Shown here: one piece after another, positions 446 to 59,954 of the stretch
How positions within the stretch are numbered: the first letter of the stretch is position 1
Layout of the letters: each line of letters starts with the position of its first letter
Source of the DNA: Haliclystus octoradiatus
Lineage: Eukaryota; Cnidaria; Staurozoa; Stauromedusae; Haliclystidae
Length of the DNA: 64,000 nucleotides
Assembly: GCA_916610825.1 (NCBI GenBank)
Contig: CAKAJK010000004.1
Coordinates: 496,001-560,000, forward strand
Direction of reading: 5' to 3'
Notes under the pieces: model-generated
The model's database searches: none
Told to the model about the DNA's origin: nothing
Seen by the model: only the letters and a program-made list of their open reading frames with translations
Translations under genes and position numbers: made by a program

Positions 446-500
446 TAAATATCAATGGGGCTAATTATGATCGCGTCTTTTAAAAGAACATTTACTTGGG
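446..500 (+). repeat. 55 bp invariant element, copy 1
   Basis: Non-monomer sequence between the GACC of one monomer and the ACAATG of the next. It contains CAATGGGGCTAATT, TGATCGCG, the 12 bp palindrome TCTTTTAAAAGA and CATTTACTTGGG. All 13 copies in the window read identical by eye. The CAATGGGGCTAATT start resembles a monomer start (CAATGCCTAATT), so it may be a strongly diverged monomer core; the rest matches no monomer subtype. Function unknown. Confidence 0.93.
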
Positions 501-1209
501 ACAATGCCTAATTCCCAAGGGAATTCAGATTTAACAAAAACAGTCAAAAATGACCATGAACAATGCCTATTTCCCATAGGATCTCAAAATTACCAAAAAC
601 AATGCCTAATTAACATGGAAATTCAAAATTTAACAATAACAGTCCTAAATAACCAATAACAATGCTTAAATCCCATTGGAATTCAAAATTAACAGTAACA
701 GTCCTAAATAACCAAAAACAATGCCCAATTCCCATGGGAATTCTAAATTAATAAAAACAGTCTTAAATGACAATAAACAATGCACAATTCCCAAGGGAAT
801 TCAGATTCAACAAAAACAGTCCAAAATGACCATGAACAATGCCTATTTCCCATAGGATCTCAAAATTACGTAAAACAATGCCTAATTAACATGGGAATTT
901 AAAATTAACAATAACAATTCTAAATAACCAAAAACAATGCCTAATTCCCATGGGAATTCAAAACTAACAAAAACAGTCCTAAATGACCAAGAACAATGAC
1001 TAATTCCTATGACAATTCAAATTTTACAAAATCAATCCTAACTGACCATAAACAATGCCTAATTTCCAAGGGAATTCAGATTTGACAAAAACAGTCCAAA
1101 ATGACCGAGAACAATGATAAATTCCCATGGGAATTCAAACTAGACAAAATCATTCCTAAATGACCAAAAACAATGCTTAATTCCCATAGGAACTTGAAAT
1201 GACCAAAAA
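501..1209. repeat. Monomer block after element copy 1
   Basis: Corresponds to the first ~700 bp of the 3.25 kb unit (compare 15,483-16,190 and 21,868-22,575). One extra T near 630 makes a 60 bp monomer (AAAATTTAACAATAAC). Monomers near 860-900 differ from the other copies (GGATCTCAAAATTACG, then AACATGGGAATTT), suggesting local conversion. Ends where the block jumps across 608 bp present in the 3.25 kb unit. Confidence 0.8.
1171..1209 (+). repeat. Representative short (39 bp) monomer
   Basis: A short monomer: CAATGCTTAATTCCC, then ATAGGAACTTGAAATGACC and an A-run. Compared with the 59 bp form it lacks 20 bp between the AAAT after the dyad and the AAAT of CCTAAATGACC. Short copies occur throughout in recurrent positions and come in subtypes such as AACTTGAAATGACC, AACTCAAAATTACC, AACTTGAAATTACC, AACTAGAAATGACC and GAGCTTAAAATGACC. 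The length change appears fixed and inherited with the higher-order unit rather than recurrent. Confidence 0.93.
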
Positions 1210-1268
1210 CAATGCCTAATTCCCATAGGAATTCAAAATCAATAAAAACAGTCCTAAATGACCAAAAA

Positions 1269-1327
1269 CAATGCCTAATTCCCATGGGAATTCAAAATTA
1301 ATAAAATCAGTCCTAAATGACCATAAA
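1269..1327 (+). repeat. Representative long (59 bp) monomer
   Basis: One copy of the long monomer, measured from CAATG to the next CAATG. In order it contains CAATGCCT, the dyad AATTCCCATGGGAATT, an A-rich stretch (CAAAATTAATAAAA), then CAGTCCTAAATGACC and an A-run before the next CAATG. Other long subtypes differ mainly at the dyad and in the middle: TTGACAAAAACAGTCC, TTAACAATAACAGTCC, TAGACAAAATCAGTCC and TTCGACAAAATCAGTCC. These subtypes recur in a fixed order inside the larger repeats. Confidence 0.95.
1277..1292. other. Class A dyad: perfect 16 bp palindrome
   Basis: AATTCCCATGGGAATT equals its own reverse complement and contains the NcoI hexamer CCATGG. It sits about 8 bases into many long monomers, so it recurs dozens of times. 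Frequent variants keep both 7-base arms but change the centre (CCCAAGGG), or break one arm (CCCATAGGAA, TACCATGGG, TCACATGGG, CCTATGACAA). This entry marks one intact example. Confidence 0.95.
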
Positions 1328-2886
1328 CAATGCCTAATTCCAAAGGGAATTCAGATTTGACAAAAACAGTCCAAAATGACCGAGAACAATGATAAATTCC
1401 TATTTGAATTCAAACTAGACAAAATCAGTCCTAAATGATTGAAAACGATGCTTAATTCCCATAGGAACTTGAAATGACCACAAACAATGTCTAATTGCCA
1501 TAGGAATTCAAAATTAATAAAAACAGTCCTAAATGACCAAAAACAATGCCTAATTCCCATGAGAATTTAAATTTGACAAAAACAGTCCAAAATGACCGCG
1601 AAAAAGGATAAATCCCCATAGGATTCAATTTCGACAAAATCAGTCCAAAAAGTCCAAAAACAATGTTAAATTCCCATAGGAATTTGAAATGACCAAAAAC
1701 AATGCCTAATTCCCATAAGAATTCAAATTTGATAAAAATTGTCCAAAATGACCACGAACAATGCCAAACTCCCATAGGGAAATAAAAATTAACAATAACA
1801 ATCCCAAATAATCAAAAACAATGCCTAAATCCCATGGGAATTCAAAATTAACAATAACAGTCCTAAATAACCAAAAACAATGCCTAATTCCCATGGGAAT
1901 TCAAAATTAATAAAATCAGTCCTAAATGACCATAAACAATGCCTAATTCCCAAGGGAAATCAGATTTGACAAAAACAGTCCAAAATGACTGAGAACAATG
2001 ATAAATTCCCATGGGAATTCAAACTAGACAAAATCATTCCTAAATGACCAAAAACAATGCTTAATTCTCATAGGAACTTGAAATGACCAAAAACAATGCC
2101 TAATTCCCATAGGAATTCAAAATTAATAAAAACAATCCTAAATGACCAAAAACAATGCCTAATTCCCATAGGAATTCAAATTTGACGAAAACAGACCAAA
2201 ATGACCGCGAACAATGATAAATCCCTATGGGATTTCAATCTCGACAAAATCAGTCCAAAAAGTCCAAAAACAATGCTAAATTCCCATAGGAACTTGAAAT
2301 GATCAAAAACAATGAGTAATTCCCATGAGAATTCAAATTTGACAAAAACTGTCCAAAATGACCACGAACAATGCCAAACTCCTATAGGAAATAAAAATTA
2401 ACAATAACAGTCCCAAATAACCAAAAACAATGCCTAAATTCCATGGGAATTCAAAATTAGTAAAAACAGTCCTAAATGACCAAGAACAATGCCTAATTCC
2501 TATGACTATTCAAATTTGACAAAATCAGTCCCAAATGACCATAAACAATGCCTAATTCCCAAGGGAATTCAGATTTAACAAAAACAGTCTAAAATGACCA
2601 TGAACAATGCCTATTTCACATAGGAACTCAAAATTATTAAAATCAATGCCTAATTCCCATGGGAATCCAAATTTGACAAAAAAAGTCTAAAATGACCACA
2701 AACAATGCCAAACTCCAATAGGAAATAAAAATTAACAATAACAGTCCTAAATAACGAAAAACAATGTCTAAATCCAATGGGAATTCAAAATTAACAATAA
2801 CCGTCCTAAATAGTCAAAAACAATGCCTAATTCCCATGGGACTTCAAAAATAATAAAAACAGTCCAAAATGACCATGAACAATGAT

Positions 2887-2903
2887 AAATCCCCAAGGGA
2901 TTT
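2887..2903. other. Class B dyad: arms AAATCCC / GGGATTT
   Basis: In monomers starting CAATGATAAATCCC the arms are AAATCCC and GGGATTT, exact reverse complements, around a 3-base centre (CAA here; TAT and CTT elsewhere). Relative to class A, both arms carry the matching change (AATTCCC to AAATCCC, GGGAATT to GGGATTT). The same class recurs across the window, for example near 143, 3,438, 13,891 and 33,408. Confidence 0.9.
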
Positions 2904-2922
2904 AAAATTCGACAAAATCTGT

Positions 2923-3856
2923 CCGAAAAGTCCAAAAACAATGCCTAACTCCCATAGGAACTTGAAATTACCAAAAACAATGCCTAATTACCATTGGAAT
3001 TCAAAATTAACAATAACAATCCTATATAACCAAAAACAATGCCTAATTCCCATGGGAATTCAAAATTAACAATAACAGTCCTAAATAACCAAAAACAATG
3101 CCTAATTCCAATGGGAATTCAAAATTAATAAAATCAGTCGTAAATGACCATAAACAATGCCTATCTGCCAAGGGAATTCAAATTTGACAAAAACAGTCCA
3201 AAATGACCGGGAACAATGATAAATTCACATGGGAATTCAAACTAGACAAAATCATTCTTAAATGACCAAAAACAATGCTTAATTCCCATAGGAACTTGAA
3301 ATGACCAAAAACAATGCCTAATTCCCATAGGAATTCAAAATTAATAAAAACAATCCTAAATGACCAAAAACAATGCCTAATTCCCATAGGAATTCAAATT
3401 TGACGAAAACAGACCAAAATGACCGCGAACAATGAAAAATCCCTATGGGATTTCAATTTCGACAAAATCAGTCCAAAAAGTCCAAAAACAATGCTAAATT
3501 CCCATAGGAACTTGAAATGATCAAAAACAATGAGTAATTCCCATGAGAATTCAAATTTGACAAAAACTGTCTAAAATGACCACGAAAAATGCCAAACTCC
3601 TATAGGAAATAAAAATTAACAATAACAGTCCCAAATAACCAAAAACAATGCCTAAATTCCATGGGAATTCAAAATTAGTAAAAACAGTCCTAAATGACCA
3701 AGAACAATGCCTAATTCCTATGACAATTCAAATTTGACAAAATCAGTCCCAAATGACCATAAACAATGCCTAATTCCCAAGGGAATTCAGATTTAACAAA
3801 AACAGTCTAAAATGACCATGAACAATGCCTATTTCACATAGGAACTCAAAATTATT
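2923..3856. repeat. Segment matching 29,455-30,388
   Basis: Offset 26,532 to the middle of the window. Shared rare variants include TACCATTGGAATTC (2,990 region), CAGTCGTAAATGACC and GCCTATCTGCCAAGGG (near 3,165). Similarity continues to about 4,130, overlapping the next segment. Confidence 0.8.
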
Positions 3857-6184
3857 AAAATCAATGCCTAATTCCCATGGGAATCCAAATTTGACAAAAA
3901 AAGTCTAAAATGACCACAAACAATGCCAAACTCCAATAGGAAATAAAAATTAACAATAACAGTCCTAAATAACGAAAAACAATGTCTAAATCCCATAGAA
4001 ATTCAAAATTAACAATAACAGTCCTAAATAGTCAAAAACAATGCCTAATTCCCATGGGACTTCAAAAATAATAAAAACAGTCCAAAATGACCAAGAACAA
4101 TGCCTAATTCCTATGACAATTCAAATTTGACAAAATCAGTCCCAAATGACCATAAACAATGCCTAATTCCCAAGGGAATTCAGATTTAACAAAAATAGTC
4201 TAAAATGACCATGAACAATGCCTATTTCACATAGGAACTCAAAATTATTAAAATCAATGCCTAATTCCCATGGGACTTCAAAAATAATAAAAACAGTCCA
4301 AAATGACCATGAACAATGATAAATCCCCAAGGGGTTTAAAATTCGAAAAAATCTGTCCGAGAAGTCCAAAAACAATGCCTAACTCCCATAGGAATTTGAA
4401 ATTACCAAAGACAATGCCTAATTACCATGGGAATTCAAAATTAACAATAACAGTCCTAAATAGTCAAAAACAATGCCAAATTCCCATGGGAATTCAAAAT
4501 TAATAAAAACAGTCCAAAATGACCGTGAACAATGATAAATCCCTATGGGATTTAAAATTCGACAAAATCAGTCCAAAAAGTCCAAAAACAATGCCTAACT
4601 CCCATAGGAACTTGAAATGACCAAAAATATGCCTAATTCCCATGAGAATTAAAATTTGACAAAAACAGTCGAAAATGATCGAGAACAATGATAAATTGCC
4701 ATGGGAATTCAAACTAGACAAAATCAGTCCTAATTGACCAAAAACAATGACAATGACCTAATTGACAAAAATAGTCCTAAATGACCAAAAACAAGGCCTA
4801 ATTCCCATGAGAATTCAAATTTGACAAAAACATTCCAAAATGACCGTGAACAATGATAAATCCTCTTGGGGTTTGAAATTCGACAAAATCAGTCCAAAAA
4901 ATCCAAAAACAATACCTAACTACCATAGGAACTTGAAATGACCAAGAAAAATGCCTAATTCCGATACAAGATTAAAATGACCAAAAACATTGCCTAATTC
5001 CCATAAAAAATAAAAATTAACAATAACAGTCCTAAATAACCAAAAACAATGCTTAAATCCCATGGGAAGTCAAAATTAACAATAACAGTCCTAAATAACC
5101 AAAAACAATGCCTAATTCCCATGGGAATTCAATATTAATAAAAACAGTCCTAAATGACCATAAACAATGCCTAACTCCCAAGGGAATTCAGATTTGACAA
5201 AAATAGTCCAAAATGACCGAGAACATTGATAAATTCACATGGGAATTCAAACTAGACAAAATCAGTCCTAAATGAACGAAAACAATGCTTAATTCCCATA
5301 GGAATTCAAAATTAATAAAAACAGTCCTAAATGACCAAAAACAATGCGTAATTCCCATGGGAATTCAAAATTAATAAAATCAGTCCTAAATGACCATAAA
5401 CAATGCCAAATTCCCAAGGGAATTCAGATTTGACAAAAACAGTCCAAAATGACCGAGAACAATGATAAATTCCCATGGGAATTCAAACTAGACAAAATCA
5501 GTCCTAAATGAACGAAAACAATGCTTAATTCCCATAGGAACTAGAAATGACCAAAAACAATGCCTAGTTCCCATAGGAATTCAAATTTGACAAAAACAGT
5601 CCAAAATGACCGCGAACATTGATAAATCCCTATGGGATTTCAATTTCGACAAAATCAGTCCAAAAAGTTCAAAAACAATGCTAAATTCCCAGAGGAACTT
5701 GAAATGATCAAAAACAATGCCTAATTCCCATGAGAATTCAAATTTGACAAAAAAGTCTAAAATGACCACAAACAATGCCAAACTCCCATAGGAAATAAAA
5801 GTTAACAACAACAGTCCTAAATAACCAAAAACAATGCCTAAATCCCATGGGAATTCAAAATTAACAATAACAGTCCTAAATAACCAAAAATAATGCCTAA
5901 TTCCAATAGGAATTCAAAATTAATAAAAACAGTCCTAAATGACCAAGAACAATGACTAATTCCTATGACAATTCAAATTTTACAAAATCAATCCTAACTG
6001 ACCGTGAACAATGATAAATCCCCTTGGGATTTGAAATTCGACAAAATCAGTCCAAAAAATCCAAAAACAATGCCTAACTCCCATAGGAACTTGAAATGAC
6101 CAAGAAAAATGCCTAATTCCCATACAAGCTTAAAATGACCAAAAACATTGCCTAATTCCCATAGGAAATAAAAATTAACAATAA
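3857..6184. repeat. 2.33 kb segmental duplication, copy 1
   Basis: Matches 8,380-10,707 at constant offset 4,523 with only a handful of substitutions seen by eye (for example CGAAAAAATCTG against CGACAAAATCTG, CCAAAGAC against CCAAAAAC, TTGGGGTTTG against TTGGGATTTG). Left flanks differ (CTCAAAATTATT here, TTGAAATGATC in copy 2). Right flanks also differ (ACAATCCTAAAT against ACAGTTCTAAAT). Contains one 216 bp type unit near 4,303 and one dyad-less monomer at 4,745. Confidence 0.87.
4745..4791 (+). repeat. Dyad-less 47 bp monomer, copy 1
   Basis: Reads CAATGACAATGACCTAATTG, so CAATG occurs twice 6 bp apart, and CTAATT joins directly to GACAAAAATAG. About 18 bp covering the right half of the dyad are missing; the AATT on both sides of the lost part suggests the junction. 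Confidence 0.88.
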
Positions 6185-7180
6185 CAATCCTAAATAACCA
6201 AAAACAATGCCTAAATCCCATGGGAAATCAAAATTAACAATAACAGTCCTAAATAACCAAAAACAATGCCTAATTCCCATGGGAATTCAAAATTAATAAA
6301 ATCAGTCCTAAATGACCATAAACAATGCCTAATTCCCAAGGGAATTCAGATTTGACAAAAACAGTCCAAAATGACCAAGAACAATAATAGATTGCCATGG
6401 GAATTCAAACTAGACAAAATCAGTCCTAAATGAACGAAAACAATGCTTAATTCTCATAGGAACTTGAAATGACCAAAAACAATGCCTAATTCCCATAGGA
6501 ATTCAAAATCAATAAAAACAGTCCTAAATGACCAAAAACAATGCCTAATTCCCATGGGAATTGAAAATTAATAAAATCAGTCCTAAATGACCATAAACAA
6601 TGCCTAATTCCAAAGGGAATTCAGATTTGACAAAAACAGTCCAAAATGACCGAGAACAATGATAAATTCCTATTTGAATTCAAACTAGACAAAATCAGTC
6701 CTAAATGATTGAAAACGATGCTTAATTCCCATAGGAACTTGAAATGACCACAAACAATGTCTAATTGCCATAGGAATTCAAAATTAATAAAAACAGTCCT
6801 AAATGACCAAAAACAATGCCTAATTCCCATGAGAATTTAAATTTGACAAAAACAATCCAAAATGACCGCGAAAAAGGATAAATCCCCATAGGATTCAATT
6901 TCGACAAAATCAGTCCAAAAAGTCCAAAAACAATGCTAAATTCCCATAGGAATTTGAAATGACCAAAAACAATGCCTAATTCCCATAAGAATTCAAATTT
7001 GACAAAAATTGTCCAAAATGACCACGAACAATGCCAAACTCCCATAGGGAAATAAAAATTAACAATAACAATCCTAAATAATCAAAAACAATGCCTAAAT
7101 CCCATGGGAATTCAAAATTAACAATAACAGTCCTAAATAACCAAAAACAATGCCTAATTCCCATGGGAATTCAAAATTAA
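6185..7180. repeat. 1.0 kb segment matching 11,917-12,912
   Basis: Offset 5,732. Subtype order includes GGGAAATC near 6,230, CTATTTGAATTC near 6,670, GAAAACGATG near 6,712 and CCATAGGGAAATAAAAA near 7,040. Ends at about 7,180, where the next monomers switch to CAATCCTATATAACC. Confidence 0.8.
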
Positions 7181-8379
7181 CAATAACAATCCTATATAAC
7201 CAAAAACAATGCCAAATTCCCATGGGAATTCAAAATTAATAAAAACAGTCCAAAATGACCGTGAACAACGATAAATCCCTATGGGATTTAAAATTCGACA
7301 AAATCAGTCCTAAATAACCAAAAACAATGCCTAATTCCCATGGGAATTCAAAATTAACAATAACAGTCCTAAATAACCAAAAACAATGCCTAATTCCGAT
7401 GGGAATTTAAAATTAATAAAATCAGTCCTAAATGACCATAAACAATGCCTAACTCCCAAGGGAATTCAGATTTGACAAAAACAGTCCAAAATGACCGAGA
7501 ACAATGATAAATTCACATGGGAATTCAAACTAGACAAAATCAGTCCTAAATGAACGAAAACAATGCTTAATTCCCATAGGAATTCAAAATTAATAAAAAC
7601 AGTCCTAAATGACCAAAAACAATGCGTAATTCCCATGGGAATTCAAAATTAATAAAATCAGTCCTAAATGACCATAAACAATGCCTAATTCCCAAGGGAA
7701 TTCAGATTTGACAAAAACAGTCCAAAATGACCGAGAACAATGATAAATTCCCATGGGAATTCAAACTAGACAAAATCAGTCCTAAATGAACGAAAACAAT
7801 GCTTAATTCCCATAGGAACTAGAAATGACCAAAAACAATGCCTAGTTCCCATAGGAATTCAAATTTGACAAAAACAGTCCAAAATGACCGCGAACATTGA
7901 TAAATCCCTATGGGATTTCAATTTCGACAAAATCAGTCCAAAAAGTTCAAAAACAATGCTAAATTCCCAGAGGAACTTGAAATGATCAAAAACAATGCCT
8001 AATTCCCATGAGAATTCAAATTTGACAAAAAAGTCTAAAATGACCACAAACAATGCCAAACTCCCATAGGAAATAAAAATTAACAACAACAGTCCTAAAT
8101 AACCAAAAACAATGCCTAAATCCCATGGGAATTCAAAATTAACAATAACAGTCCTAAATAACCAAAAATAATGCCTAATTCCAATAGGAATTCAAAATTA
8201 ATAAAAACAGTCCTAAATGACCAAGAACAATGCCTAATTTCTATGACAATTCAAATTTGACAAAATCAGTCCAAAATGACCGTGAACAATGATAAATCCC
8301 CTTGGGATTTGAAATTCGACAAAATCAGTCCAAAAAGTTCAAAAGCAATGCTAAATTCCCAGAGGAACTTGAAATGATC
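7181..8379. repeat. 1.15 kb segment matching 14,013-15,166
   Basis: Offset 6,832 until about 8,334. The rare GAACAACGATAAATCC (near 7,262) is shared with 14,094. The last ~45 bp (GTTCAAAAGCAATGC) join it to the second copy of the 2.33 kb duplication. With the preceding segment it shows that 6.2-8.4 kb is assembled from two non-adjacent parts of the 4.59 kb unit. Confidence 0.78.
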
Positions 8380-10707
8380 AAAATCAATGCCTAATTCCCA
8401 TGGGAATCCAAATTTGACAAAAAAAGTCTAAAATGACCACAAACAATGCCAAACTCCAATAGGAAATAAAAATTAACAATAACAGTCCTAAATAACGAAA
8501 AACAATGTCTAAATCCCATAGAAATTCAAAATTAACAATAACAGTCCTAAATAGTCAAAAACAATGCCTAATTCCCATGGGACTTCAAAAATAATAAAAA
8601 CAGTCCAAAATGACCAAGAACAATGCCTAATTCCTATGACAATTCAAATTTGACAAAATCAGTCCCAAATGACCATAAACAATGCCTAATTCCCAAGGGA
8701 ATTCAGATTTAACAAAAATAGTCTAAAATGACCATGAACAATGCCTATTTCACATAGGAACTCAAAATTATTAAAATCAATGCCTAATTCCCATGGGACT
8801 TCAAAAATAATAAAAACAGTCCAAAATGACCATGAACAATGATAAATCCCCAAGGGGTTTAAAATTCGACAAAATCTGTCCGAGAAGTCCAAAAACAATG
8901 CCTAACTCCCATAGGAATTTGAAATTACCAAAAACAATGCCTAATTACCATGGGAATTCAAAATTAACAATAACAGTCCTAAATAGTCAAAAACAATGCC
9001 AAATTCCCATGGGAATTCAAAATTAATAAAAACAGTCCAAAATGACCGTGAACAATGATAAATCCCTATGGGATTTAAAATTCGACAAAATCAGTCCAAA
9101 AAGTCCAAAAACAATGCCTAACTCCCATAGGAACTTGAAATGACCAAAAAAATGCCTAATTCCCATGAGAATTAAAATTTGACAAAAACAGTCGAAAATG
9201 ATCGAGAACAATGATAAATTGCCATGGGAATTCAAACTAGACAAAATCAGTCCTAATTGACCAAAAACAATGACAATGACCTAATTGACAAAAATAGTCC
9301 TAAATGACCAAAAACAAGGCCTAATTCCCATGAGAATTCAAATTTGACAAAAACATTCCAAAATGACCGTGAACAATGATAAATCCTCTTGGGATTTGAA
9401 ATTCGACAAAATCAGTCCAAAAAATCCAAAAACAATACCTAACTACCATAGGAACTTGAAATGACCAAGAAAAATGCCTAATTCCGATACAAGATTAAAA
9501 TGACCAAAAACATTGCCTAATTCCCATAAAAAATAAAAATTAACAATAACAGTCCTAAATAACCAAAAACAATGCTTAAATCCCATGGGAAGTCAAAATT
9601 AACAATAACAGTCCTAAATAACCAAAAACAATGCCTAATTCCCATGGGAATTCAATATTAATAAAAACAGTCCTAAATGACCATAAACAATGCCTAACTC
9701 CCAAGGGAATTCAGATTTGACAAAAATAGTCCAAAATGACCGAGAACATTGATAAATTCACATGGGAATTCAAACTAGACAAAATCAGTCCTAAATGAAC
9801 GAAAACAATGCTTAATTCCCATAGGAATTCAAAATTAATAAAAACAGTCCTAAATGACCAAAAACAATGCGTAATTCCCATGGGAATTCAAAATTAATAA
9901 AATCAGTCCTAAATGACCATAAACAATGCCAAATTCCCAAGGGAATTCAGATTTGACAAAAACAGTCCAAAATGACCGAGAACAATGATAAATTCCCATG
10001 GGAATTCAAACTAGACAAAATCAGTCCTAAATGAACGAAAACAATGCTTAATTCCCATAGGAACTAGAAATGACCAAAAACAATGCCTAGTTCCCATAGG
10101 AATTCAAATTTGACAAAAACAGTCCAAAATGACCGCGAACATTGATAAATCCCTATGGGATTTCAATTTCGACAAAATCAGTCCAAAAAGTTCAAAAACA
10201 ATGCTAAATTCCCAGAGGAACTTGAAATGATCAAAAACAATGCCTAATTCCCATGAGAATTCAAATTTGACAAAAAAGTCTAAAATGACCACAAACAATG
10301 CCAAACTCCCATAGGAAATAAAAGTTAACAACAACAGTCCTAAATAACCAAAAACAATGCCTAAATCCCATGGGAATTCAAAATTAACAATAACAGTCCT
10401 AAATAACCAAAAATAATGCCTAATTCCAATAGGAATTCAAAATTAATAAAAACAGTCCTAAATGACCAAGAACAATGACTAATTCCTATGACAATTCAAA
10501 TTTTACAAAATCAATCCTAACTGACCGTGAACAATGATAAATCCCCTTGGGATTTGAAATTCGACAAAATCAGTCCAAAAAATCCAAAAACAATGCCTAA
10601 CTCCCATAGGAACTTGAAATGACCAAGAAAAATGCCTAATTCCCATACAAGCTTAAAATGACCAAAAACATTGCCTAATTCCCATAGGAAATAAAAATTA
10701 ACAATAA
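8380..10707. repeat. 2.33 kb segmental duplication, copy 2
   Basis: Second copy of 3,857-6,184 (offset 4,523), with one 216 bp type unit near 8,826 and a dyad-less monomer at 9,268. The near identity against surrounding monomer divergence implies a recent event. To its right (10,708-10,840) the sequence follows the block that precedes the 55 bp element elsewhere. Confidence 0.87.
9268..9314 (+). repeat. Dyad-less 47 bp monomer, copy 2
   Basis: Same as 4,745-4,791, carried in the second copy of the 2.33 kb duplication. Confidence 0.88.
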
Positions 10708-10840
10708 CAGTTCTAAATAACCAAAAACAATGCTTAAATCCCATGGAAAGTCAAAATTAACAATAACTGTCCTAAATAACCAAAAACAATGCCTAATTCC
10801 CATGGGAATTCAAAATTAATAAAAACAGTCCTAAATGACC

Positions 10841-10895
10841 TAAATATCAATGGGGCTAATTATGATCGCGTCTTTTAAAAGAACATTTACTTGGG
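10841..10895 (+). repeat. 55 bp invariant element, copy 2
   Basis: Identical to copy 1. The monomer about 210 bp downstream has the left-type state AACCAATAACAATGC and, uniquely among copies, CAGTAACAATCC. Confidence 0.93.
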
Positions 10896-13800
10896 ACAAT
10901 GCCTAATTCCCAAGGGAATTCAGATTTAACAAAAACAGTCAAAAATGACCATGAACAATGCCTATTTCCCATAGGATCTCAAAATTACCAAAAACAATGC
11001 CTAATTAACATGGAAATTCAAAATTAACAATAACAGTCCTAAATAACCAATAACAATGCTTAAATCCCATTGGAATTCAAAATTAACAGTAACAATCCTA
11101 AATAACCAAAAACAATGCCCAATTCCCATGGGAATTCTAAATTAATAAAAACAGTCTTAAATGACAATAAACAATGCACAATTCCCAAGGGAATTCAGAT
11201 TCAACAAAAACAGTCCAAAATGACCATGAACAATGCCTATTTCCCATAGGAACTCAAAATTACCAAAAACAATGCCTAATTACCATGGGAATTCAAAATT
11301 ATCAATAACAATTCTAAATAACCAAAAACAATGCCTAATTCCCATGGGAATTCAAAACTAACAAAAACAGTCCTAAATGACCAAGAACAATGACTAATTC
11401 CTATGACAATTCAAATTTTACAAAATCAATCCTAACTGACCATAAACAATGCCTAATTTCCAAGGGAATTCAGATTTGACAAAAACAGTCCAAAATGACC
11501 GAGAACAATGATAAATTCCCATGGGAATTCAAACTAGACAAAATCATTCCTAAATGACCAAAAACAATGCTTAATTCCCATAGGAACTTGAAATGACCAA
11601 AGACAATGCCTAATTCCCATAGAAATTCAAAATTACTAAAAACAGTCCTAAATGATCAAAAACAATGCCTAATTCCCATGAGAATTTAAATTTGACAAAA
11701 ACAGTCCAAAATGACCGCGAAAAAGGATAAATCCCCATGGGATTCAATTTCGACAAAATCAGTCCAAAAAGTCCAAAAACAATGCTAAATTCCCATAGGA
11801 ACTTGAAATGACCAAAAACAATGCCTAATTCCCATGAGAATTCAAATTTTACAAAAACTGTCCAAAATGACCACGAACAATGCCAAACTCCCATAGGAAA
11901 TAAAAATTAACAATAACAATCCTAAATAACCAAAAACAATGCCTAAATCCCATGGGAAATCAAAATTAACAATAACAGTCCTAAATAACCAAAAACAATG
12001 CCTAATTCCCATGGGAATTCAAAATTAATAAAATCAGTCCTAAATGACCATAAACAATGCCTAATTCCCAAGGGAATTCAGATTTGACAAAAACAGTCCA
12101 AAATGACCAAGAACAATAATAGATTCCCATGGGAATTCAAACTAGACAAAATCAGTCCTAAATGAACGAAAACAATGCTTAATTCTCATAGGAACTTGAA
12201 ATGACCAAAAACAATGCCTAATTCCCATAGGAATTCAAAATCAATAAAAACAGTCCTAAATGACCAAAAACAATGCCTAATTCCCATGGGAATTCAAAAT
12301 TAATAAAATCAGTCCTAAATGACCATAAACAATGCCTAATTCCAAAGGGAATTCAGATTTGACAAAAACAGTCCAAAATGACCGAGAACAATGATAAATT
12401 CCTATTTGAATTCAAACTAGACAAAATCAGTCCTAAATGATTGAAAACGATGCTTAATTCCCATAGGAACTTGAAATGACCACAAACAATGTCTAATTGC
12501 CATAGGAATTCAAAATTAATAAAAACAGTCCTAAATGACCAAAAACAATGCCTAATTCCCATGAGAATTTAAATTTGACAAAAACAATCCAAAATGACCG
12601 CGAAAAAGGATAAATCCCCATAGGATTCAATTTCGACAAAATCAGTCCAAAAAGTCCAAAAACAATGCTAAATTCCCATAGGAATTTGAAATGACCAAAA
12701 ACAATGCCTAATTCCCATAAGAATTCAAATTTGACAAAAATTGTCCAAAATGACCACGAACAATGCCAAACTCCCATAGGGAAATAAAAATTAACAATAA
12801 CAATCCTAAATAATCAAAAACAATGCCTAAATCCCATGGGAATTCAAAATTAACAATAACAGTCCTAAATAACCAAAAACAATGCCTAATTCCCATGGGA
12901 ATTCAAAATTAATAAAATCAGTCCTAAATGACCATAAACAATGCCTAATTCCCAAGGGAATTCAGATTTGACAAAAACAGTCCAAAATGACTGAGAACAA
13001 TGATAAATTCCCATGGGAATTCAAACTAGACAAAATCATTCCTAAATGACCAAAAACAATGCTTAATTCTCATAGGAACTTGAAATGACCAAAAACAATG
13101 CCTAATTCCCATAGGAATTCAAAATTAATAAAAACAATCCTAAATGACCAAAAACAATGCCTAATTCCCATAGGAATTCAAATTTGACGAAAACAGACCA
13201 AAATGACCGCGAACAATGATAAATCCCTATGGGATTTCAATTTCGACAAAATCAGTCCAAAAAGTCCAAAAACAATGCTAAATTCCCATAGGAACTTGAA
13301 ATGATCAAAAACAATGAGTAATTCCCATGAGAATTCAAATTTGACAAAAACTGTCCAAAATGACCACGAACAATGCCAAACTCCTATAGGAAATAAAAAT
13401 TAACAATAACAGTCCCAAATAACCAAAAACAATGCCTAAATTCCATGGGAATTCAAAATTAGTAAAAACAGTCCTAAATGACCAAGAACAATGCCTAATT
13501 CCTATGACAATTCAAATTTGACAAAATCAGTCCCAAATGACCATAAACAATGCCTAATTCCCAAGGGAATTCAGATTTAACAAAAACAGTCTAAAATGAC
13601 CATGAACAATGCCTATTTCACATAGGAACTCAAAATTATTAAAATCAATGCCTAATTCCCATGGGAATCCAAATTTGACAAAAAAAGTCTAAAATGACCA
13701 CAAACAATGCCAAACTCCAATAGGAAATAAAAATTAACAATAACAGTCCTAAATAACGAAAAACAATGTCTAAATCCCATGGGAATTCAAAATTAACAAT

Positions 13801-47931: not shown

Positions 47932-49216
47932 CAAGGCGTAATTCCCATGAGAATTCAAATTTGACAAAAACATTCCAAAATGACCGTGAACAATGATAAA
48001 TCCTCTTGGGATTTGAAATTCGACAAAATCAGTCCAAAAAATCCAAAAACAATACCTAACTACCATAGGAACTTGAAATGACCAAGAAAAATGCCTAATT
48101 CCGATACGAGCTTAAAATGACCAAAAACATTGCCTAATTCCCATAAAAAATAAAAATTAACAATAACAGTCCTAAATAACCAAAAACAATGCTTAAATCC
48201 CATGGGAAGTCAAAATTAACAATAACAGTCCTAAATAACCAAAAACAATGCCTAATTCCCATGGGAATTCGAAAAATAAATAAAAACAGTCCTAAATGAC
48301 CATAAACATTGCCTAATTCCCAAGGGAATTCAGATTTAACAAAAACAGTCCAAAATGACCATGAACAATGCCTATTTCCCATAGGATCTCAAAATTACCA
48401 AAAACAATGCCTAATTACCATGGGAATTCAAAATTATCGATAACAATCCTAAATAACCAAAAACAATGCCTAATTCCCATGGGAATTCAAAATTAACAAT
48501 AACAGTCCTAAATAACCAAAAACAATGCCTAATTCCAATGGGAATTTAAAATTAATAAAATCAGTCCTAAATGACCATAAACAATGCCTAACTCCCAAGG
48601 GAATTCAATTTTGACAAAAATAGTCCAAAATGACCGAGAACAATGATAAATTCACATGGGAATTCAAACTAGACAAAATCAGTCCTAAATGAACGAAAAC
48701 AATGCTTAATTCCCATAGGAATTCAAAATTAATAAAAACAGTCCTAAATGACCAAAAACAATGCGTAATTCCCATGGGAATTCAAAATTAATAAAATCAG
48801 TCCTAAATGACCATAAACAATGCCTAATTCCCAAGGGAATTCAGATTTGACAAAAACAGTCCAAAATGACCGAGAACAATGATAAATTCCCATGGGAATT
48901 CAAACTAGACAAAATCAGTCCTAAATGAACGAAAACAATGCTTAATTCCCATAGGAACTAGAAATGACCAAAAACAATGCCTAGTTCCCATAGGAATTCA
49001 AATTTGACAAAAACAGTCCAAAATGACCGCGAACATTGATAAATCCCTATGGGATTTCAATTTCGACAAAATCAGTCCAAAAAGTTCAAAAACAATGCTA
49101 AATTCCCATAGGAACTTGAAATGATCAAAAACAATGCCTAATTCCCATGAGAATTCAAATTTGACAAAAAAGTCTAAAATGACCACAAAAAATGCCAAAC
49201 TCCCATAGGAAATAAA

Positions 49217-51462
49217 AATTAACAACAGCAGTCCTAAATAACCAAAAACAATGCCTAAATCCCATGGGAATTCAAAATTAACAATAACAGTCCTAAATAA
49301 CCAAAAATAATGCCTAATTCCAATGGGAATTCAAAATTAATAAAAACAGTCCTAAATGACCAAGAACAATGCCTAATTCCTATGACAATTCAAATTTGAC
49401 AAAATCAGTCCAAAATGACCGTGAACAATGATAAATCCCCTTGGGATTTTAAATTCGACAAAATCAGTCCAAAAAATCCAAAAACAATACCTAACTCCCA
49501 TAGGAACTTGAAATGACCAAGAAAAATGCCTAATTCCCATACGAGCTTAAAATGACCAAAAACATTGCCTAATTCCCATAGGAAATAAAAATTAACAATA
49601 ACAGTTCTAAATAACCAAAAACAATACTTAAATCCCATGGAAAGTCAAAATTAACAATAACAGTCCTAAATAACCAAAAACAATTCCTAATTCCCATGGG
49701 AATTCAAAATTAATAAAAACAGTCCTAAATGACCTAAATATCAATGGGGCTAATTATGATCGCGTCTTTTAAAAGAACATTTACTTGGGACAATGCCTAA
49801 TTCCCAAGGGAATTCAGATTTAACAAAAACAGTCAAAAATGACCATGAACAATGCCTATTTCCCAAAGGATCTCAAAATTACCAAAAACAATGCCTAATT
49901 AACATGGGAATTCAAAATTAACAATAACAGTCCTAAATAACCAATAAAAATGCTTAAATCCCATTGGAATTCAAAATTAACAGTAACAGTCCCAAATAAC
50001 CAAAAACAATGCCCAATTCCCATGGGAATTCTAAATTAATAAAAACAGTCTTAAATGACAATAAACAATGCACAATTCCCAAGGGAATTCAGATTCAACA
50101 AAAACAGTCCAAAATGACCATGAACAATGCCTATTTCCCATAGGAACTCAAAATTACCAAAAACAATGCCTAATTACCATGGGAATTCAAAATTATCAAT
50201 AACAATTCTAAATAACCAAAAACAATGCCTAATTCCCATGGGAATTCAAAACTAACAAAAACAGTCCTAAATGACCAAGAACAATGACTAATTCCTATGA
50301 CAATTCAAATTTTACAAAATCAATCCTAACTGACCATAAACAATGCCTAATTTCCAAGGGAATTCAGATTTGACAAAAACAGTCCAAAATGACCGAGAAC
50401 AATGATAAATTCCCATGGGAATTCAAACTAGACAAAATCATTCCTAAATGACCAAAAACAATGCTTAATTCCCATAGGAACTTGAAATGACCAAAAACAA
50501 TGCCTAATTCCCATAGGAATTCAAAATTACTTAAAACAATCCTAAATGACCAAAAACAATGCCTAATTCCCATGAGAATTTAAATTTGACAAAAACAGTC
50601 CAAAATGACCGCGAAAAAGGATAAATCCCCATGGGATTCAATTTCGACAAAATCAGTCCAAAAAGTCCAAAAACAATGCTAAATTCCCATAGGAACTTGA
50701 AATGACCAAAAACAATGCCTAATTCCCATGAGAATTCAAATTTTACAAAAACTGTCCAAAATGACCACGAACAATGCCAAACTCCCATAGGAAATAAAAA
50801 TTAACAATAACAATCCTAAATAACCAAAAACAATGCCTAAATCCCATGGGAATTCAAAATTAACAATAACAGTCCTAAATAACCAAAAACAATGCCTAAT
50901 TCCCATGGGAATTCAAAATTAATAAAATCAGTCCTAAATGACCATAAACAATGCCTAATTCCCAAGGGAATTCAGATTTGACAAAAACAGTCCAAAATGA
51001 CCGAGAACAATGATAGATTCCCATGGGAATTCAAACTAGACAAAATCAGTCCTAAATGAACGAAAACAATGCTTAATTCTTATAGGAACTTGAAATGACC
51101 AAAAACAATGCCTAATTCCCATAGGAATTCAAAATCAATAAAAACAGTCCTAAATGACCAAAAACAATGCCTAATTCCCATGGGAATTCAAAATTAATAA
51201 AATCAGTCCTAAATGACCATAAACAATGCCTAATTCAAAAGGGAATTCAGATTTGACAAAAACGGTCCAAAATGACCGAGAACAATGATAAATTCCTATT
51301 TGAATTCAAACTAGACAAAATCAGTCCTAAATGATTGAAAACGATGCTTAATTCCCATAGGAACTTGAAATGACCAAAAACAATGCCTAATTGCCATAGG
51401 AATTCAAAATTAATAAAAACAGTCCTAAATGACCAAAAACAATGCCTAATTCCCATGAGAAT
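49217..51462. repeat. 2.25 kb displaced duplication, copy 1
   Basis: Matches 59,382-61,627 at constant offset 10,165, including its 55 bp element and rare variants ATTACTTAAAAC (50,525), AATTCTTATAGG (51,076) and AATTCAAAAGGG (51,233). Confidence 0.85.
49735..49789 (+). repeat. 55 bp invariant element, copy 11
   Basis: Identical to copy 1. Flanks carry private changes CAATTCCTAATTCCC (49,682) and CCCAAAGGATCTC (49,863), both shared with copy 13 only. Confidence 0.93.
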
Positions 51463-54169
51463 TTAAATTTGACAAAAACAGTCCAAAATGACCGCGAAAA
51501 AGGATAAATCCCCATAGGATTCAATTTCGACAAAATCGGTCCAAAAAGTCCAAAAACAATGCTAAATTCCCATAGGAATTTGAAATGACCAAAAACAATG
51601 CCTAATTCCCATAAGAATTCAAATTTGACAAAAATTGTCCAAAAAGACCACGAACAATGCCAAACTCCCATAGGGAAATAAAAATTAACAATAACAATCC
51701 TAAATAATCAAAAACAATGCCTAAATCCCATGGGAATTCAAAATTAACAATAACAGTCCTAAATAACCAAAAACAATGCCTAATTCCCATGGGAATTCAA
51801 AATTAATAATATCAGTCCTAAATGACCATAAACAATGCCTAATTCCCAAGGGAATTCAGATTTGACAAAAACAGTCCAAAATGACTGAGAACAATGATAA
51901 ATTCCCATGGGAATTCAAACTAGACAAAATCAGTCCTAAATGAACGAAAACAATGCTTAATTCTCATAGGAACTTGAAATGACCAAAAACAATGCCTAAT
52001 TCCCATAGGAATCCAAAATTAATAAAAACACTTCTAAATGACAAAAAACAATGCCTAATTCCCATGGGAATTCAAAATTAATAAAATCAGTCCTAAATGA
52101 CCATAAACAATGCCTAATTCCAAAGGGAATTCAGATTTGACAAAAACAGTCCAAAATGACCGAGAACAATGATAAATTCCCATTGGAATTCAAACTAGAC
52201 AAAATCAGTCCTAAATGATTGAAAACAATGCTTAATTCCCATAGGAACTTGAAATGACCAAAAACAATGCCTAATTCCCATAGGAATTCAAATTTGACAA
52301 AAACAGTCGAAAATGACCGAGAACAATGATAAATTGCCATGGGAATTCAAACTAGACAAAATCAGTCCTAATTGACCAAAAACAATGACAATGACCTAAT
52401 TGACAAAATTAGTCCTAAATAACCAAAAACAATGCCCAATTCCCATGGGAATTCTAAATTAATAAAAACAGTCTTAAATGACAATAAACAATGCACAATT
52501 CCCAAGGGAATTCAGATTCAACAAAAACAGTCCAAAATGACCATGAACAATGCCTATTTCCCATAGGAACTCAAAATTACCAAAAACAATGCCTAATTAC
52601 CATGGGAATTCAAAATTAACAATAACAATCCTATATAACCAAAAACAATGCCTAATTCCCATAGGAATTCAAATTTGACGAAAACAGACCAAAATGACCG
52701 CGAACAATGATAAATCCCTATGGGATTTCAATTTCGACAAAATCAGTCCAAAAAGTCCAAAAACAATGCTAAATTCCCATAGGAACTTGAAATGATCAAA
52801 AACAATGAGTAATTCCCATGAGAATTCAAATTTGACAAAAACTGTCCAAAATGACCACGAACAATGCCAAACTCCCATAGGAAATAAAAATTAACAATAA
52901 CAATCCTAAATAACCAAAAACAATGCCTAAATCCCATGGGAATTCAAAATTAACAATAACAGTCCTAAATAACCAAAAACAATGCCTAATTCCCATGGGA
53001 ATTCAAAATTAATAAAATCAGTCCTAAATGACCATAAACAATGCCTAATTCCCAAGGGAATTCAGATTTGACAAAAACAGTCCAAAATGACCGAGAACAA
53101 TGATAGATTCCCATGGGAATTCAAACTAGACAAAATCAGTCCTAAATGAACGAAAACAATGCTTAATTCTCATAGGAACTTGAAATGACCAAAAACAATG
53201 CCTAATTCCCATAGGAATTCAAAATCAATAAAAACAGTCCTAAATGACCAAAAACAATGCCTAATTCCCATGGGAATTCAAAATTAATAAAATCAGTCCT
53301 AAATGACCATAAACAATGCCTAATTCCAAAGGGAATTCAGATTTGACAAAAACAGTCCAAAATGACCGAGAACAATGATAAATTCCTATTTGAATTCAAA
53401 CTAGACAAAATCAGTCCTAAATGATTGAAAACGATGCTTAATTCCCATAGGAGCTTGAAATGACCAAAAACAATGCCTAATTGCCATAGGAATTCAAAAT
53501 TAATAAAAACAGTCCTAAATGACCAAAAACAATGCCTAATTCCCATGAGAATTTAAATTTGACAAAAACAGTCCAAAATGACCGCGAAAAAGGATAAATC
53601 CCCATAGGATTCAATTTCGACAAAATCAGTCCAAATAGTCCAAAAACAATGCTAAATTCCCATAGGAATTTGAAATGACCAAAAACAATGCCTAATTCCC
53701 ATAAGAATTCAAATTTGACAAAAATTGTCCAAAATGACCACGAACAATGCCAAACTCCCATAGGGAAATAAAAATTAACAATAACAATCCTAAATAATCA
53801 AAAACAATGCCTAAATCCCATGGGAATTCAAAATTAACAATAACAGTCCTAAATAACCAAAAACAATGCCTAATTCCCATGGGAATTCAAAATTAATAAA
53901 ATCAGTCCTAAATGACCATAAACAATGCCTAATTCCCAAGGGAATTCAGATTTGACAAAAACAGTCCAAAATGACTGAGAACAATGATAAATTCCCATGG
54001 GAATTCAAACTAGACAAAATCATTCCTAAATGACCAAAAACAATGCTTAATTCTCATAGGAACTTGAAATGACCAAAAACAATGCCTAATTCCCATAGGA
54101 ATTCAAAATTAATAAAAACAATCCTAAATGACCAAAAACAATGCCTAATTCCCATAGGAATTCAAATTT
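51463..54169. repeat. Mosaic block with internal 2,090 bp offset copy
   Basis: About 50,780-51,917 is repeated at 52,870-54,007 (offset 2,090). Between them, 51,920-52,290 follows 35,530-35,900. A dyad-less monomer at 52,383 runs directly into monomers that elsewhere lie ~330 bp downstream of the 55 bp element (AATGCCCAATTCCC), so the element and its near flank are missing there. Confidence 0.75.
52383..52429 (+). repeat. Dyad-less 47 bp monomer, copy 6
   Basis: Differs in its second half (AAAATTAGTCCTAAATAACC) and is followed by AATGCCCAATTCCC, marking a recombination junction inside the monomer. Confidence 0.86.
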
Positions 54170-56942
54170 GACGAAAACAGACCAAAATGACCGCGAACAA
54201 TGATAAATCCCTATGGGATTTCAATTCCGACAAAATCAGTCCAAAAAGTCCAAAAACAATGCTAAATTCCCATAGGAACTTGAAATGATCAAAAACAATG
54301 AGTAATTCCCATGAGAATTCAAATTTGACAAAAACTGTCCAAAATGACCACGAACAATGCCAAACTCCTATAGGAAATAAAAATTAACAATAACAGTCCC
54401 AAATAACCAAAAACAATGCCTAAATTCCATGGGAATTCAAAATTAGTAAAAACAGTCCTAAATGACCAAGAACAATGCCTAATTCCTATGACAATTCAAA
54501 TTTGACAAAATCAGTCCCAAATGACCATAAACAATGCCTAATTCCCAAGGGAATTCAGATTTAACAAAAACAGTCTAAAATGACCATGAACAATGCCTAT
54601 TTCACATAGGAACTCAAAATTATTAAAATCAATGCCTAATTCCCATGGGAATCCAAATTTGACAAAAAAAGTCTAAAATGACCACAAACAATGCCAAACT
54701 CCAATAGGAAATAAAAATTAACAATAACAGTCCTAAATAACGAAAAACAATGTCTAAATCCCATGGGAATTCAAAATTAACAATAACAGTCCTAAATAGT
54801 CAAAAACAATGCCTAATTCCCATGGGACTTCAAAAATAATAAAAACAGTCCAAAATGACCAAGAACAATGCCTAATTCCTATGACAATTCAAATTTGACA
54901 AAATCAGTCCCAAATGACCATAAACAATGCCTAATTCCCAAGGGAATTCAGATTTAACAAAAACAGTCTAAAATGACCATGAACAATGCCTATTTCACAT
55001 AGGAACTCAAAATTATTAAAATCAATGCCTAATTTCCATGGGACTTCAAAAATAATAAAAACAGTCCAAAATGACCATGAACAATGATAAATCCCCAAGG
55101 GGTTTAAAATTCGACAAAATCTGTCCGAGAAGTCCAAAAACAATGCCTAACTCCCATAGGAATTTGAAATTACCAAAAACAATGCCTAATTACCATGGGA
55201 ATTCAAAATTAACAATAACAGTCCTAAATAGTCAAAAACAATGCCTAATTCCCATGGGACTTCAAAAATAATAAAAACAGTCCAAAATGACCATGAACAA
55301 TGATAAATCCCCAAGGGATTTAAATTTCGACAAAATCTGTCCGAGAAGTCCAAAAACAATGCCTAACTCCCATAGGAATTTGAAATTACCAAAAACAATG
55401 CCTAATTACCATGGGAATTCAAAATTAACAATAACAGTCCGAAATAGTCAAAAACAATGCCTAATTCCCATGGGACTTCAAAAATAATAAAAACAGTCCA
55501 AAATGACCATGAACAATGAAAAATCCCCAAGGGATTTAAAATTCGACAAAATCTGTCCGAAAAGTCCAAAAACAATGCCTAACTCCCATAGGAACTTGAA
55601 ATTACCAAAAACAATGCCTAATTACCATGGGAATTCAAAATTAACAATAACAATCCTATATAACCAAAAACTATGCCTAATTCCCATGGAAATTCAAAAT
55701 TAACAATAACAGTCCTAAATAACCAAAAACAATGCCTAATTCCAATGCGAATTCAAAATTAAAAAAATCAGTCCTAAATGACCATAAACAATGCCTAACT
55801 CCCAAGGGAATTCAGATTTGACAAAAACAGTCCAAAATGACCGGGAACAATGATAAATTCACATGGGAATTCAAACTAGACAAAATCAGTCCTAAATGAA
55901 CAAAAACTATGCTTAATTCCCATAGGAATTCAAAATTAATAAAAACAGTCCTAAATGACCAAAAACAATGCGTAATTCCCATGGGAATTCAAAATTAATA
56001 AAATCAGTCCTAAATGACCATAAACAATGCCTAATTCCCAAGGGAATTCAGATTTGACAAAAACAGTCCAAAATGACCGAGAACAATGATAAATTCCCAT
56101 GGGAATTCAAACTAGACAAAATCAGTCCTAAATGAACGAAAACAATGCTTAATTCCCATAGGAACTAGAAATGACCAAAAACAATGCCTAGTTCCCATAG
56201 GAATTCAAATTTGACAAAAACATTTTAAAATGACCGCGAACATTGATAAATCCCTATGGGATTTCAATTTCGACAAAATCAGTCCAAAAAGTTCAAAAAC
56301 AATGCTAAATTCCCATAGGAACTTGAAATGATCAAAAACAATGCCTAATTCCAATGAGAATTCAAATTTGACAAAAAAGTCTAAAATGACCACAAACAAT
56401 GCCAAACTCCCATAGGAAATAAAAATTAACAACAACAGTCCTAAATAACCAAAAACCAATGCCTAAATCCCATGGGAATTCAAAATTAACAATAACAGTC
56501 CTAAATAACCAAAAATAATGCCTAATTCCAATGGGAATTCAAAATTAATAAAAACAGTCCTAAATGACCAAGAACAATGCCTAATTCCTATGACAATTCA
56601 AATTTGACAAATTCAGTCCAAAATGACCGTGAACAATGATAAATCCCCTTGGGATTTGAAATTCGACAAAATCAGTCCAAAAAATCCAAAAACAATACCT
56701 AACTCCCATAGGAACTTGAAATGACCAAGAAAAATGCCTAATTCCCATACGAGCTTAAAATGACCAAAAACATTGCCTAATTCCCATAGGAAATAAAAAT
56801 TAACAATAACAGTTCTAAATAACCAAAAACAATACTTAAATCCCATGGAAAGTCAAAATTAACAATAACAGTCCTAAATAACCAAAAACAATGCCTAATT
56901 CCCATGGGAATTCAAAATTAATAAAAACAGTCCTAAATGACC
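54170..56942. repeat. Segment matching 32,488-34,500
   Basis: Offset 21,682, including a 216 bp x3 array (55,071, 55,287, 55,503) with the same GAG, GAG, GAA order as 33,389-34,021. Also shared are private CTATGCCTAATTCCC, AATGCGAATTC and the A7 run. From about 56,190 it follows the end of the ~4.2 kb unit instead. One extra C occurs at about 56,457 (AAAAACCAATGCC). Confidence 0.82.
55071..55703. repeat. 216 bp x3 array
   Basis: Displaced copy of the array at 33,389. Private differences include CAGTCCGAAATAGTC near 55,436 and AATGAAAAATCCCC near 55,516. Confidence 0.85.
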
Positions 56943-56997
56943 TAAATATCAATGGGGCTAATTATGATCGCGTCTTTTAAAAGAACATTTACTTGGG
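56943..56997 (+). repeat. 55 bp invariant element, copy 12
   Basis: Identical to copy 1; right-type state AACCAATAAAAATGC. Confidence 0.93.
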
Positions 56998-58480
56998 ACA
57001 ATGCCTAATTCCCAAGGGAATTCAGATTTAACAAAAACAGTCAAAAATGACCATGAACAATGCCTATTTCCCATAGGATCTCAAAATTACCAAAAACAAT
57101 GCCTAATTAACATGGGAATTCAAAATTAACAATAACAGTCCTAAATAACCAATAAAAATGCTTAAATCCCATTGGAATTCAAAATTAACAGTAACAGTCC
57201 CAAATAACCAAAAACAATGCCCAATTCCCATGGGAATTCTAAATTAATAAAAACAGTCTTAAATGACAATAAACAATGCACAATTCCCAAGGGAATTCAG
57301 ATTCAACAAAAACATTCCAAAATGACCATGAACAATGCCTATTTCCCATAGGAACTCAAAATTACCAAAAACAATGCCTAATTACCATGGGAATTCAAAA
57401 TTATCAATAACAATTCTAAATAACCAAAAACAATGCCTAATTCCCATGGGAATTCAAAACTAACAAAAACAGTCCTAAATGACCAAGAACAATGACTAAT
57501 TCCTATGACAATTCAAATTTTACAAAATCAATCCTAACTGACCATAAACAATGCCTAATTTCCAAGGGAATTCAGATTTGACAAAAACAGTCCAAAATGA
57601 CCGAGAACAATGATAAATTCCCATGGGAATTCAAACTAGACAAAATCATTCCTAAATGACCAAAAACAATGCTTAATTCCCATAGGAACTTGAAATGACC
57701 AAAAACAATGCCTAATTCCCATAGGAATTCAAAATTAATAAAAACAATCCTAAATGACCAAAAACAATGCCTAATTCCCATAGGAATTTAAATTTGACGA
57801 AAACAGGCCAAAATGACTGCGAACAATGATAAATCCCTATGGGATTTCAATTTCTACAAAATCAGTCCAAAAAGTCCAAAAACAATGCTAAATTCCCATA
57901 GGAACTTGAAATGATCAAAAACAATGACTAATTCCCATGAGAATTCAAATTTGACAAAAACTGTCCAAAATGACCACGAACAATGCCAAACTCCTATAGG
58001 AAATAAAAATTAACAATAACAGTCCCAAATAACCAAAAACAATGCCTAAATTCCATGGGAATTCAAAATTAGTAAAAACAGTCCTAAATGACCAAGAACA
58101 ATGCCTAATTCCTATGACAGTTCAAATTTGACAAAATCAGTCCCAAATGACCATAAACAATGCCTAATTCCCAAGGGAATTCAGATTTAACAAAAACAGT
58201 CTAAAATGACCATGAACAATGCCTATTTCACATAGGAACTCAAAATTAATAAAATCAATGCCTAATTCCCATGGGAATCCAAATTTGACAAAAAAAATCT
58301 AAAATGACCACAAACAATGCCAAACTCCAATAGGAAATAAAAATTAACAATAACAGTCCTAAATAACGAAAAACAATGTCTAAATCCCATGGGAATTCAA
58401 AATTAACAATAACAGTCCTAAATAACCAAAAACAATGCCTAAATCCCATGGGACTTCAAAAATAATAAAAACAGTCCAAA

Positions 58481-59113
58481 ATGACCATGAACAATGATAA
58501 ATCCCCAAGGGATTTAAAATTCGACAAAATCTGTCCGAGAAGTCCAAAAACAATGCCTAACTCCCATAGGAACTTGAAATTACCAAAAACAATGCCGAAT
58601 TACCATGGGAATTCAAAATTAACAATAACAGTCCTAAATAGTCAAAAACAATGCCTAATTCCCATGGGACTTCAAAAATAATAAAAACAGTCCAAAATGA
58701 CCATGAACAATGATAAATCCCCAAGGGATTTAAAATTCGACAAAATCTGTCCGAAAAGTCCAAATACAATGCCTAACTCCCATAGGAACTTGAAATTACC
58801 AAAAACAATGCATAATTACCATGGGAATTCAAAATTAACAATAACAATCCTATATAACCAAAAACAATGCCAAATTCCCAAGGGAATTCAAAATTAATAA
58901 AAACAGTCCAAAATGACCGTGAACAATTATAAATCCCTATGGGATTTAAAATTCGACAAAATCTGTCCGAAAAGTCCAAAAACAATGCCTAACTCCCATA
59001 GGAACTTGAAATTACCAAAAACAATGCCTAATTACCATGGGAATTCAAAATTAACAATAACAATCCTATATAACCAAAAACAATGCCAAATTCCCATGGG
59101 AATTCAAAATTAA
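58481..59113. repeat. 216 bp x3 array
   Basis: Units at 58,481, 58,697 and 58,913, matching 47,010-47,642 including GTCCAAATACAATGCC. The following class B monomer carries GATAAGTCCC (59,142 region), also seen at 47,674 and 62,827. Confidence 0.85.
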
Positions 59114-59899
59114 TAAAAACAGTCCAAAATGACCGTGAACAGTGATAAGTCCCTATGGGATTTAAAATTCGACAAAATCAGTCCAAAAAGTCCAAAAACA
59201 ATGCCTAACTCCCATAGGAACTTGAAATGACCAAAAAAATGCCTAATTCCCATGAGAATTAAAATTTGACAAAAATAGTCCAAAATGACCGAGAACAATG
59301 ATAAATTCACATGGGAATTCAAACTAGACAAAATCAGTCCTAAATGAACGAAAACAATGCTTAATTCCCATAGGAATTCAAAATTAACAACAACAGTCCT
59401 AAATAACCAAAAACAATGCCTAAATCCCATGGGAATTCAAAATTAACAATAACAGTCCTAAATAACCAAAAATAATGCCTAATTCCAATGGGAATTCAAA
59501 ATTAATAAAAACAGTCCTAAATGACCAAGAACAATGCCTAATTCCTATGACAATTCAAATTTGACAAAATCAGTCCAAAATGACCGTGAACAATGATAAA
59601 TCCCCTTGGGATTTGAAATTCGACAAAATCAGTCCAAAAAATCCAAAAACAATACCTAACTCCCATAGGAACTTGAAATGACCAAGAAAAATGCCTAATT
59701 CCCATACGAGCTTAAAATGACCAAAAACATTGCCTAATTCCCATAGGAAATAAAAATTAACAATAACAGTTCTAAATAACCAAAAACAATACTTAAATCC
59801 CATGGAAAGTCAAAATTAACAATAACAGTCCTAAATAACCAAAAACAATTCCTAATTCCCATGGGAATTCAAAATTGATAAAAACAGTCCTAAATGACC

Positions 59900-59954
59900 T
59901 AAATATCAATGGGGCTAATTATGATCGCGTCTTTTAAAAGAACATTTACTTGGG
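59900..59954 (+). repeat. 55 bp invariant element, copy 13
   Basis: Identical to copy 1, although an adjacent upstream monomer has a private G (AAAATTGATAAAAAC) and CCCAAAGGATCTC lies downstream. Last copy in the window. Confidence 0.93.

Follow-up and report, generated by a model that had tools for sequence, protein, structure and literature searches.

What keeps a 55-bp element identical in copy after copy when the satellite around it has diverged? The question is raised by a stretch of 64,000 nucleotides from the staurozoan Haliclystus octoradiatus (C13:496001-560000; hereafter the window, with positions that lack a contig name counted within it), for which a preliminary description had proposed either sequence constraint, such as that on a protein-binding box resembling the CENP-B box, or very recent spread. 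The element proves to be a fragment from the end of the Cdk9 gene that entered a satellite array a single time. That satellite fills the window (1..64000, + strand); its monomers, of 59 bp and 39 bp, run in one direction and are arranged in duplicated blocks of kilobase size, and the satellite also makes up the first 4 kb of the contig; the far end of the contig (C13:908472-912471) is a different, AT-rich and repeat-like sequence, in which the word ACAATG is absent from both strands over the 4 kb. Genome-wide, a 38-bp satellite word matches 4847 times in forward and 25 times in reverse orientation, and among the matches listed the monomers are also present on C1, C5 and C15. These related stretches lie, again among the matches listed, at C1:21.09-22.01 Mb, C5:16.23-16.50 Mb and C15:354-360 kb, those on C1 and C5 being on the minus strand and the variants of all three looking contig-specific. 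An interior cluster of telomere-type TTAGG repeats is found at C5:11186386-11186708, where a search with (TTAGG)6 gave 12 overlapping exact matches, the only place in the assembly that it reported.

Thirteen copies of the element lie in the window, all on the + strand, at 446..500, 10841..10895, 15428..15482, 18561..18615, 21813..21867, 25064..25118, 27982..28036, 39532..39586, 41270..41324, 45511..45565, 49735..49789, 56943..56997 and 59900..59954. They are letter-for-letter identical over 55 bp, and all thirteen starting points in the preliminary description were right. No further copy is present on either strand of the window at up to 3 mismatches, the number expected from 100 shuffles of the window is 0, and Rfam gives 0 matches there at the gathering score. 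The array continues on both sides, and in the 240 kb read contiguously (C13:420001-660000) there are 24 copies, from C13:473420 to C13:621858, of which 23 are identical while that at C13:477523 has one change. Direct reading covered these 240 kb, the first and last 4 kb of C13 and 20 kb of C6, and for the rest of the assembly (261.9 Mb in 33 contigs) a statement of absence refers to genome searches. A pattern search with 41 bases, allowing up to 3 mismatches, returned 25 matches, 24 in C13 and one on C6, and a BLAST-type search returned 44 rows, which are the same 25 places together with 19 short hits, 27 bp each, in plain flanking satellite. The spacing of the 24 copies is irregular, from 640 bp to 38.5 kb. 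The closest pair stands at C13:606679 and C13:607319, 640 bp apart, and the 38.5 kb from C13:560828 to C13:599331 are devoid of copies, so that the spread is patchy.

That the element is the only sequence here unlike the monomers, as had been said, holds well for the larger region: 24 of the 25 outlier clusters in the 240 kb are the element, and the remaining one (C13:641291-641330) is a small local duplication, a short ATGATAA repeat inside a monomer. Outliers were defined as 40-bp tiles at an edit distance of at least 15 from the monomer modules, a threshold of the analyst's choosing that leaves tiles at distance 12-14 outside the inspection; at this threshold, and that short local duplication aside, C13:420001-660000 contains no other captured sequence.

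The single match outside the array, C6:26900286-26900342, is identical at 56 of 57 bases (98%) and forms the 3′-terminal part of a Cdk9 gene, comprising the last 11 codons (NINGANYDRVF), the stop codon (TAA, C6:26900320-26900322) and 20 bp beyond. Within the 55 bp of the element are the same 11 codons, the TAA and 17 bp beyond it (20 bp if the ACA shared with the satellite is counted), in sense orientation on the + strand of the satellite. The C6 match lies where a 307-residue open frame (stop to stop) ends, a frame that Pfam assigns to the protein kinases (Pkinase) and whose residues 16-307 match the solved structure of cyclin-dependent kinase 9, presumably the human protein, with an E value of 5.7e-134 down to the final R-V-F. 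As this C-terminus is common to the C6 frame and the solved CDK9, the transfer was from gene to satellite. Upstream in the same 10 kb of C6 are a piece with GQGTFG and a piece with TALREI, each cut off by stops, and because these separate pieces are taken to be upstream Cdk9 exons, the locus looks like a normal gene with introns, as opposed to a retrocopy. The two candidate boxes singled out in the preliminary description, TGATCGCG and the palindrome TCTTTTAAAAGA (468..487 in copy 1, + strand), are the bases around the Cdk9 codons for Y-D-R-V-F, the stop and the first bases after it. All 24 array copies have the same ends, the same orientation and the same one-base difference from Cdk9, and the insertion therefore had a single origin.

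What the satellite looked like before the insertion can be read from its empty counterparts. A search of the 240 kb for the left and right flanks (70 bp each) near one another, at up to 14 mismatches each, gave 1344 candidate empty sites, with exactly 4 bp between the flanks in 1338 of them. The closest of these read GACC-ATAA-ACAATG, and across 140 bp just 1-3 of their bases depart from the flanks of filled copies. By comparison with them, the left junction of a filled site is satellite GACC (442..445 in copy 1, + strand, and the same in all 13 window copies) and the right junction is satellite ACAATG (501..506 in copy 1, + strand), so that ATAA has been replaced by the 55 bp, a tiny deletion. 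Target-site duplication is absent when filled and empty sites are compared, and there is no poly(A) at the right junction, which reads GGG-ACAATG. About 3 bp of microhomology can be recognized at each end. On the right it is the ACA common to donor and satellite, while on the left there are two readings: either AAA is shared and one satellite base was lost, or ACC is shared and is followed by a donor T and a 2-base skip. A GACCTAAACAATG monomer is absent from the 240 kb. The two microhomology ends are modestly suggestive of end joining and not proof of it, because 7% of 200,000 random pairings have at least 3 bp of microhomology at one junction and the small indel at the left junction gives extra freedom. 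An insert from a distant genomic locus, bounded by neither a target-site duplication nor junction poly(A), is what characterizes class-2 templated sequence insertions, and the end-joining marks of that class, microdeletion and microhomology, are present too, the latter carrying modest weight given the chance rate of 0.07. The anatomy of the junctions matches this class, with a break as the probable starting point that such anatomy suggests.

With a probability of about 0.93, the 24 copies are identical by recent descent, the end of Cdk9 having been captured once by break repair and then multiplied by block copying within the array. The repair, which we infer from one insertion, would have begun when a single monomer of the satellite suffered a break, or a fork stalled there, in or beside the ATAA of GACC-ATAA-ACAATG. 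Repair would then have copied or patched in some 55-59 bp of the Cdk9 3′ end, a patch made up of the last 11 codons, the stop and at most 20 bp beyond (17 of them inside the 55 bp), using the microhomology of about 3 bp at each end in alternative end joining or template switching. Within this reading, a patch end-joined at the break from Cdk9 RNA or cDNA instead of Cdk9 DNA is a possible though rather unlikely variant. Class-2 insertions have been argued, in the available part of the human study, to be RNA-derived (PMC5110952), and the fragment, which falls within one open stretch of the gene, is compatible with such a template; however, it contains no splice junction, and so a patch from RNA and one from DNA would look the same.

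Amplification after the capture is recorded in the surroundings of the copies. Each of the 24 has a partner with which it shares an ungapped block of 605-5049 bp, about 95-99.6% identical with 8-34 flank mismatches. Partner distances of 1738, 3251, 3611 and 4726 bp are near the lengths of the corresponding blocks (1889, 3787, 3617 and 5049 bp), as in tandem segmental duplication. The eighth and ninth copies of the window are in such a duplication, spaced 1738 bp apart, and, counted from the start of the element, agree without a mismatch over 538 bp to the left and 990 bp to the right. As random monomers differ on average by 21% over 38 bp (5000 pairs), the blocks are probably recent relative to the age of the monomers. 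In the second step of the proposed origin, unequal exchange, tandem segmental duplication and gene conversion would have copied the block that held the patch until 148 kb of one contig contained 24 copies. It is very improbable that the assembler, and not the genome, multiplied the copies within the satellite contig. The satellite is highly repetitive and the contig is 912 kb long, which gives that idea some footing, but the copies differ in their flanks, carry private variants and are irregularly spaced, and there is no N in the 240 kb; misassembly might alter the copy number and would hardly make identical Cdk9-satellite junctions 24 times.

Whether the element varies less than its surroundings bears directly on the proposal of constraint. 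The flank variants that had been cited in its favor (AAAATTGATAAAAAC before copy 13, CCCAAAGGATCTC after copies 11 and 13, and GTCAAAATTGACC after copy 5) are all correct, but the contrast that they implied, of an invariant element between varying flanks, does not hold at close range: over the adjoining 30 bp, 12 of the 13 copies agree with one another on the left side and all 13 agree on the right. For the 13 window copies, variable columns number 0/55 in the element and 4/150 in the nearby flanks (Fisher p 0.58), or 11/200 in wider flanks (p 0.13); for all 24 copies the figures are 1/55 against 6/150 in the nearest flanks (p 0.68) and 15/200 in the wider ones (p 0.21). Stretches beyond about -100 and +155 are excluded from this test because copies there are increasingly in different block contexts. 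Mean pairwise difference (pi) is 0.0015 in the element, 0.0096 in the left 50 bp and 0.0031 in the right 100 bp. The element is nominally the quietest stretch in each comparison, and not significantly so. The comparison of substitution density inside and outside the 55 bp that the preliminary description had called for thus comes close to the equality that was to count against constraint (p 0.13-0.68), with the lower variability of the element surviving in nominal form.

A control from the array itself puts the identity in proportion. For 300 random array 55-mers, the count of copies (self included) reaches 24 in 77% when 1 mismatch is allowed and in 38% when none is, and since the nearest copies anywhere in the 240 kb are counted, and not strictly orthologous ones, the control shows that identity is ordinary in the array and not that rates are equal. 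Within the window, 668 other 55-mers that are clear of the element are each present 13 or more times in identical form, these being mutually overlapping and not independent. The perfect identity of the element is ordinary in this array; recent spread suffices to explain it and constraint is not needed. The other explanation in the preliminary description, recent spread, is supported by this control together with the large near-identical blocks, and the copies are identical because of recent descent from one insertion and not because of demonstrable sequence constraint. Mild constraint on the element may nevertheless be present, as every comparison gives it a nominally lower variability than the flanks.

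The CENP-B box of alpha satellite is a short motif in a subset of satellite repeats, and the element resembles it in just that respect, while differing in its gene origin, irregular spacing and want of any match to the box. That selection should keep the 55 bp constant as a putative protein-binding box of this kind is extremely unlikely. Speaking for it are the low counts of variable columns, the lowest rate among the stretches compared, and the position of the element as the main non-monomer sequence in 240 kb. These weigh little against the lack of a significant difference from the flanks, the frequency of equal identity among random 55-mers of the array, spacing that ranges from hundreds of bases to tens of kilobases, and codons of Cdk9 that explain both candidate boxes; moreover, the satellite monomers extend, among the matches listed, to C1, C5 and C15, where the element was not found by the pattern search (41 bases, up to 3 mismatches). 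The CENP-B box consensus is not enriched in the window: there is 1 one-mismatch match, at 51526 and so outside the element, with 2.77 expected. A CENP-B-box-like site in the element was rejected as a candidate, there being no consensus match within it and no encouragement from the variability test or the random 55-mers.

Equally unlikely is a transposon, or a product of LINE-driven retrotransposition of Cdk9 mRNA (a class-1 templated insertion), for although the run of the gene fragment over the stop codon into the 3′ flank is compatible with mRNA, target-site duplication and 3′ poly(A) are both missing, the junction is of a single type, and the genome searches found no dispersed independent insertion, just the 24 copies in one array and the donor. 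It is likewise most improbable that the array is transcribed antisense to Cdk9 and could yield, from the Cdk9 stop-codon region present in its 24 copies, piRNA or siRNA that tunes this P-TEFb kinase gene and so favored the recent spread.

The proposed capture of the Cdk9 end by break repair, followed by copying in the array, has its closest parallels in three known systems. Class-2 templated sequence insertions (TSI, or TSIP as polymorphisms), described for human cells and human polymorphisms, are alike in being short patches from a distant locus with microdeletion and junction microhomology and with neither target-site duplication nor poly(A); here, unlike in the human cases as far as the available part of that account goes, the patch landed in a satellite monomer and went on to be amplified to 24 copies, keeping in mind that alpha-satellite sequence was discarded from the human screen (PMC5110952). 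The CentC arrays of maize centromere 10 are similar in microhomology-based break repair and in segmental duplications that form higher-order repeats, and the accessible portion of the account records the insertion of mitochondrial sequence and one CentC sequence with a 40-nt insertion whose source is left unstated (PMC4806543). The maize case differs in being from a plant and, in that portion, in having no piece of a protein gene multiplied in a higher-order repeat, the term ‘gene fragment’ going unmentioned there (PMC4806543). On the Drosophila Y, heterochromatic breaks are likewise repaired with microhomology, with gene duplication and gene conversion, and new satellites have arisen, some of them possibly from non-repetitive sequence; what is described in the part of that report at hand is duplicated genes and new simple satellites, in contrast to a 55-bp scrap inside an older satellite (PMC8794474). 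No report of the present case was recognized among the matches listed from the open-licence literature, and a 16-base satellite word had no match in that literature.

The element is a clear new example of known processes, the capture of a gene fragment and the amplification of satellite DNA. A single genome shows the donor, the recipient, the empty site and the subsequent amplification, which makes the capture of unique DNA by a satellite traceable. It also serves as a warning that the perfect identity of an odd satellite element does not by itself indicate function. The Cdk9 piece acts as a natural tag for the array, in which block copying has carried it over 148 kb of a single contig, and as the genome search did not find it in related arrays on other contigs, it offers a means by which exchange between chromosomes can be followed.
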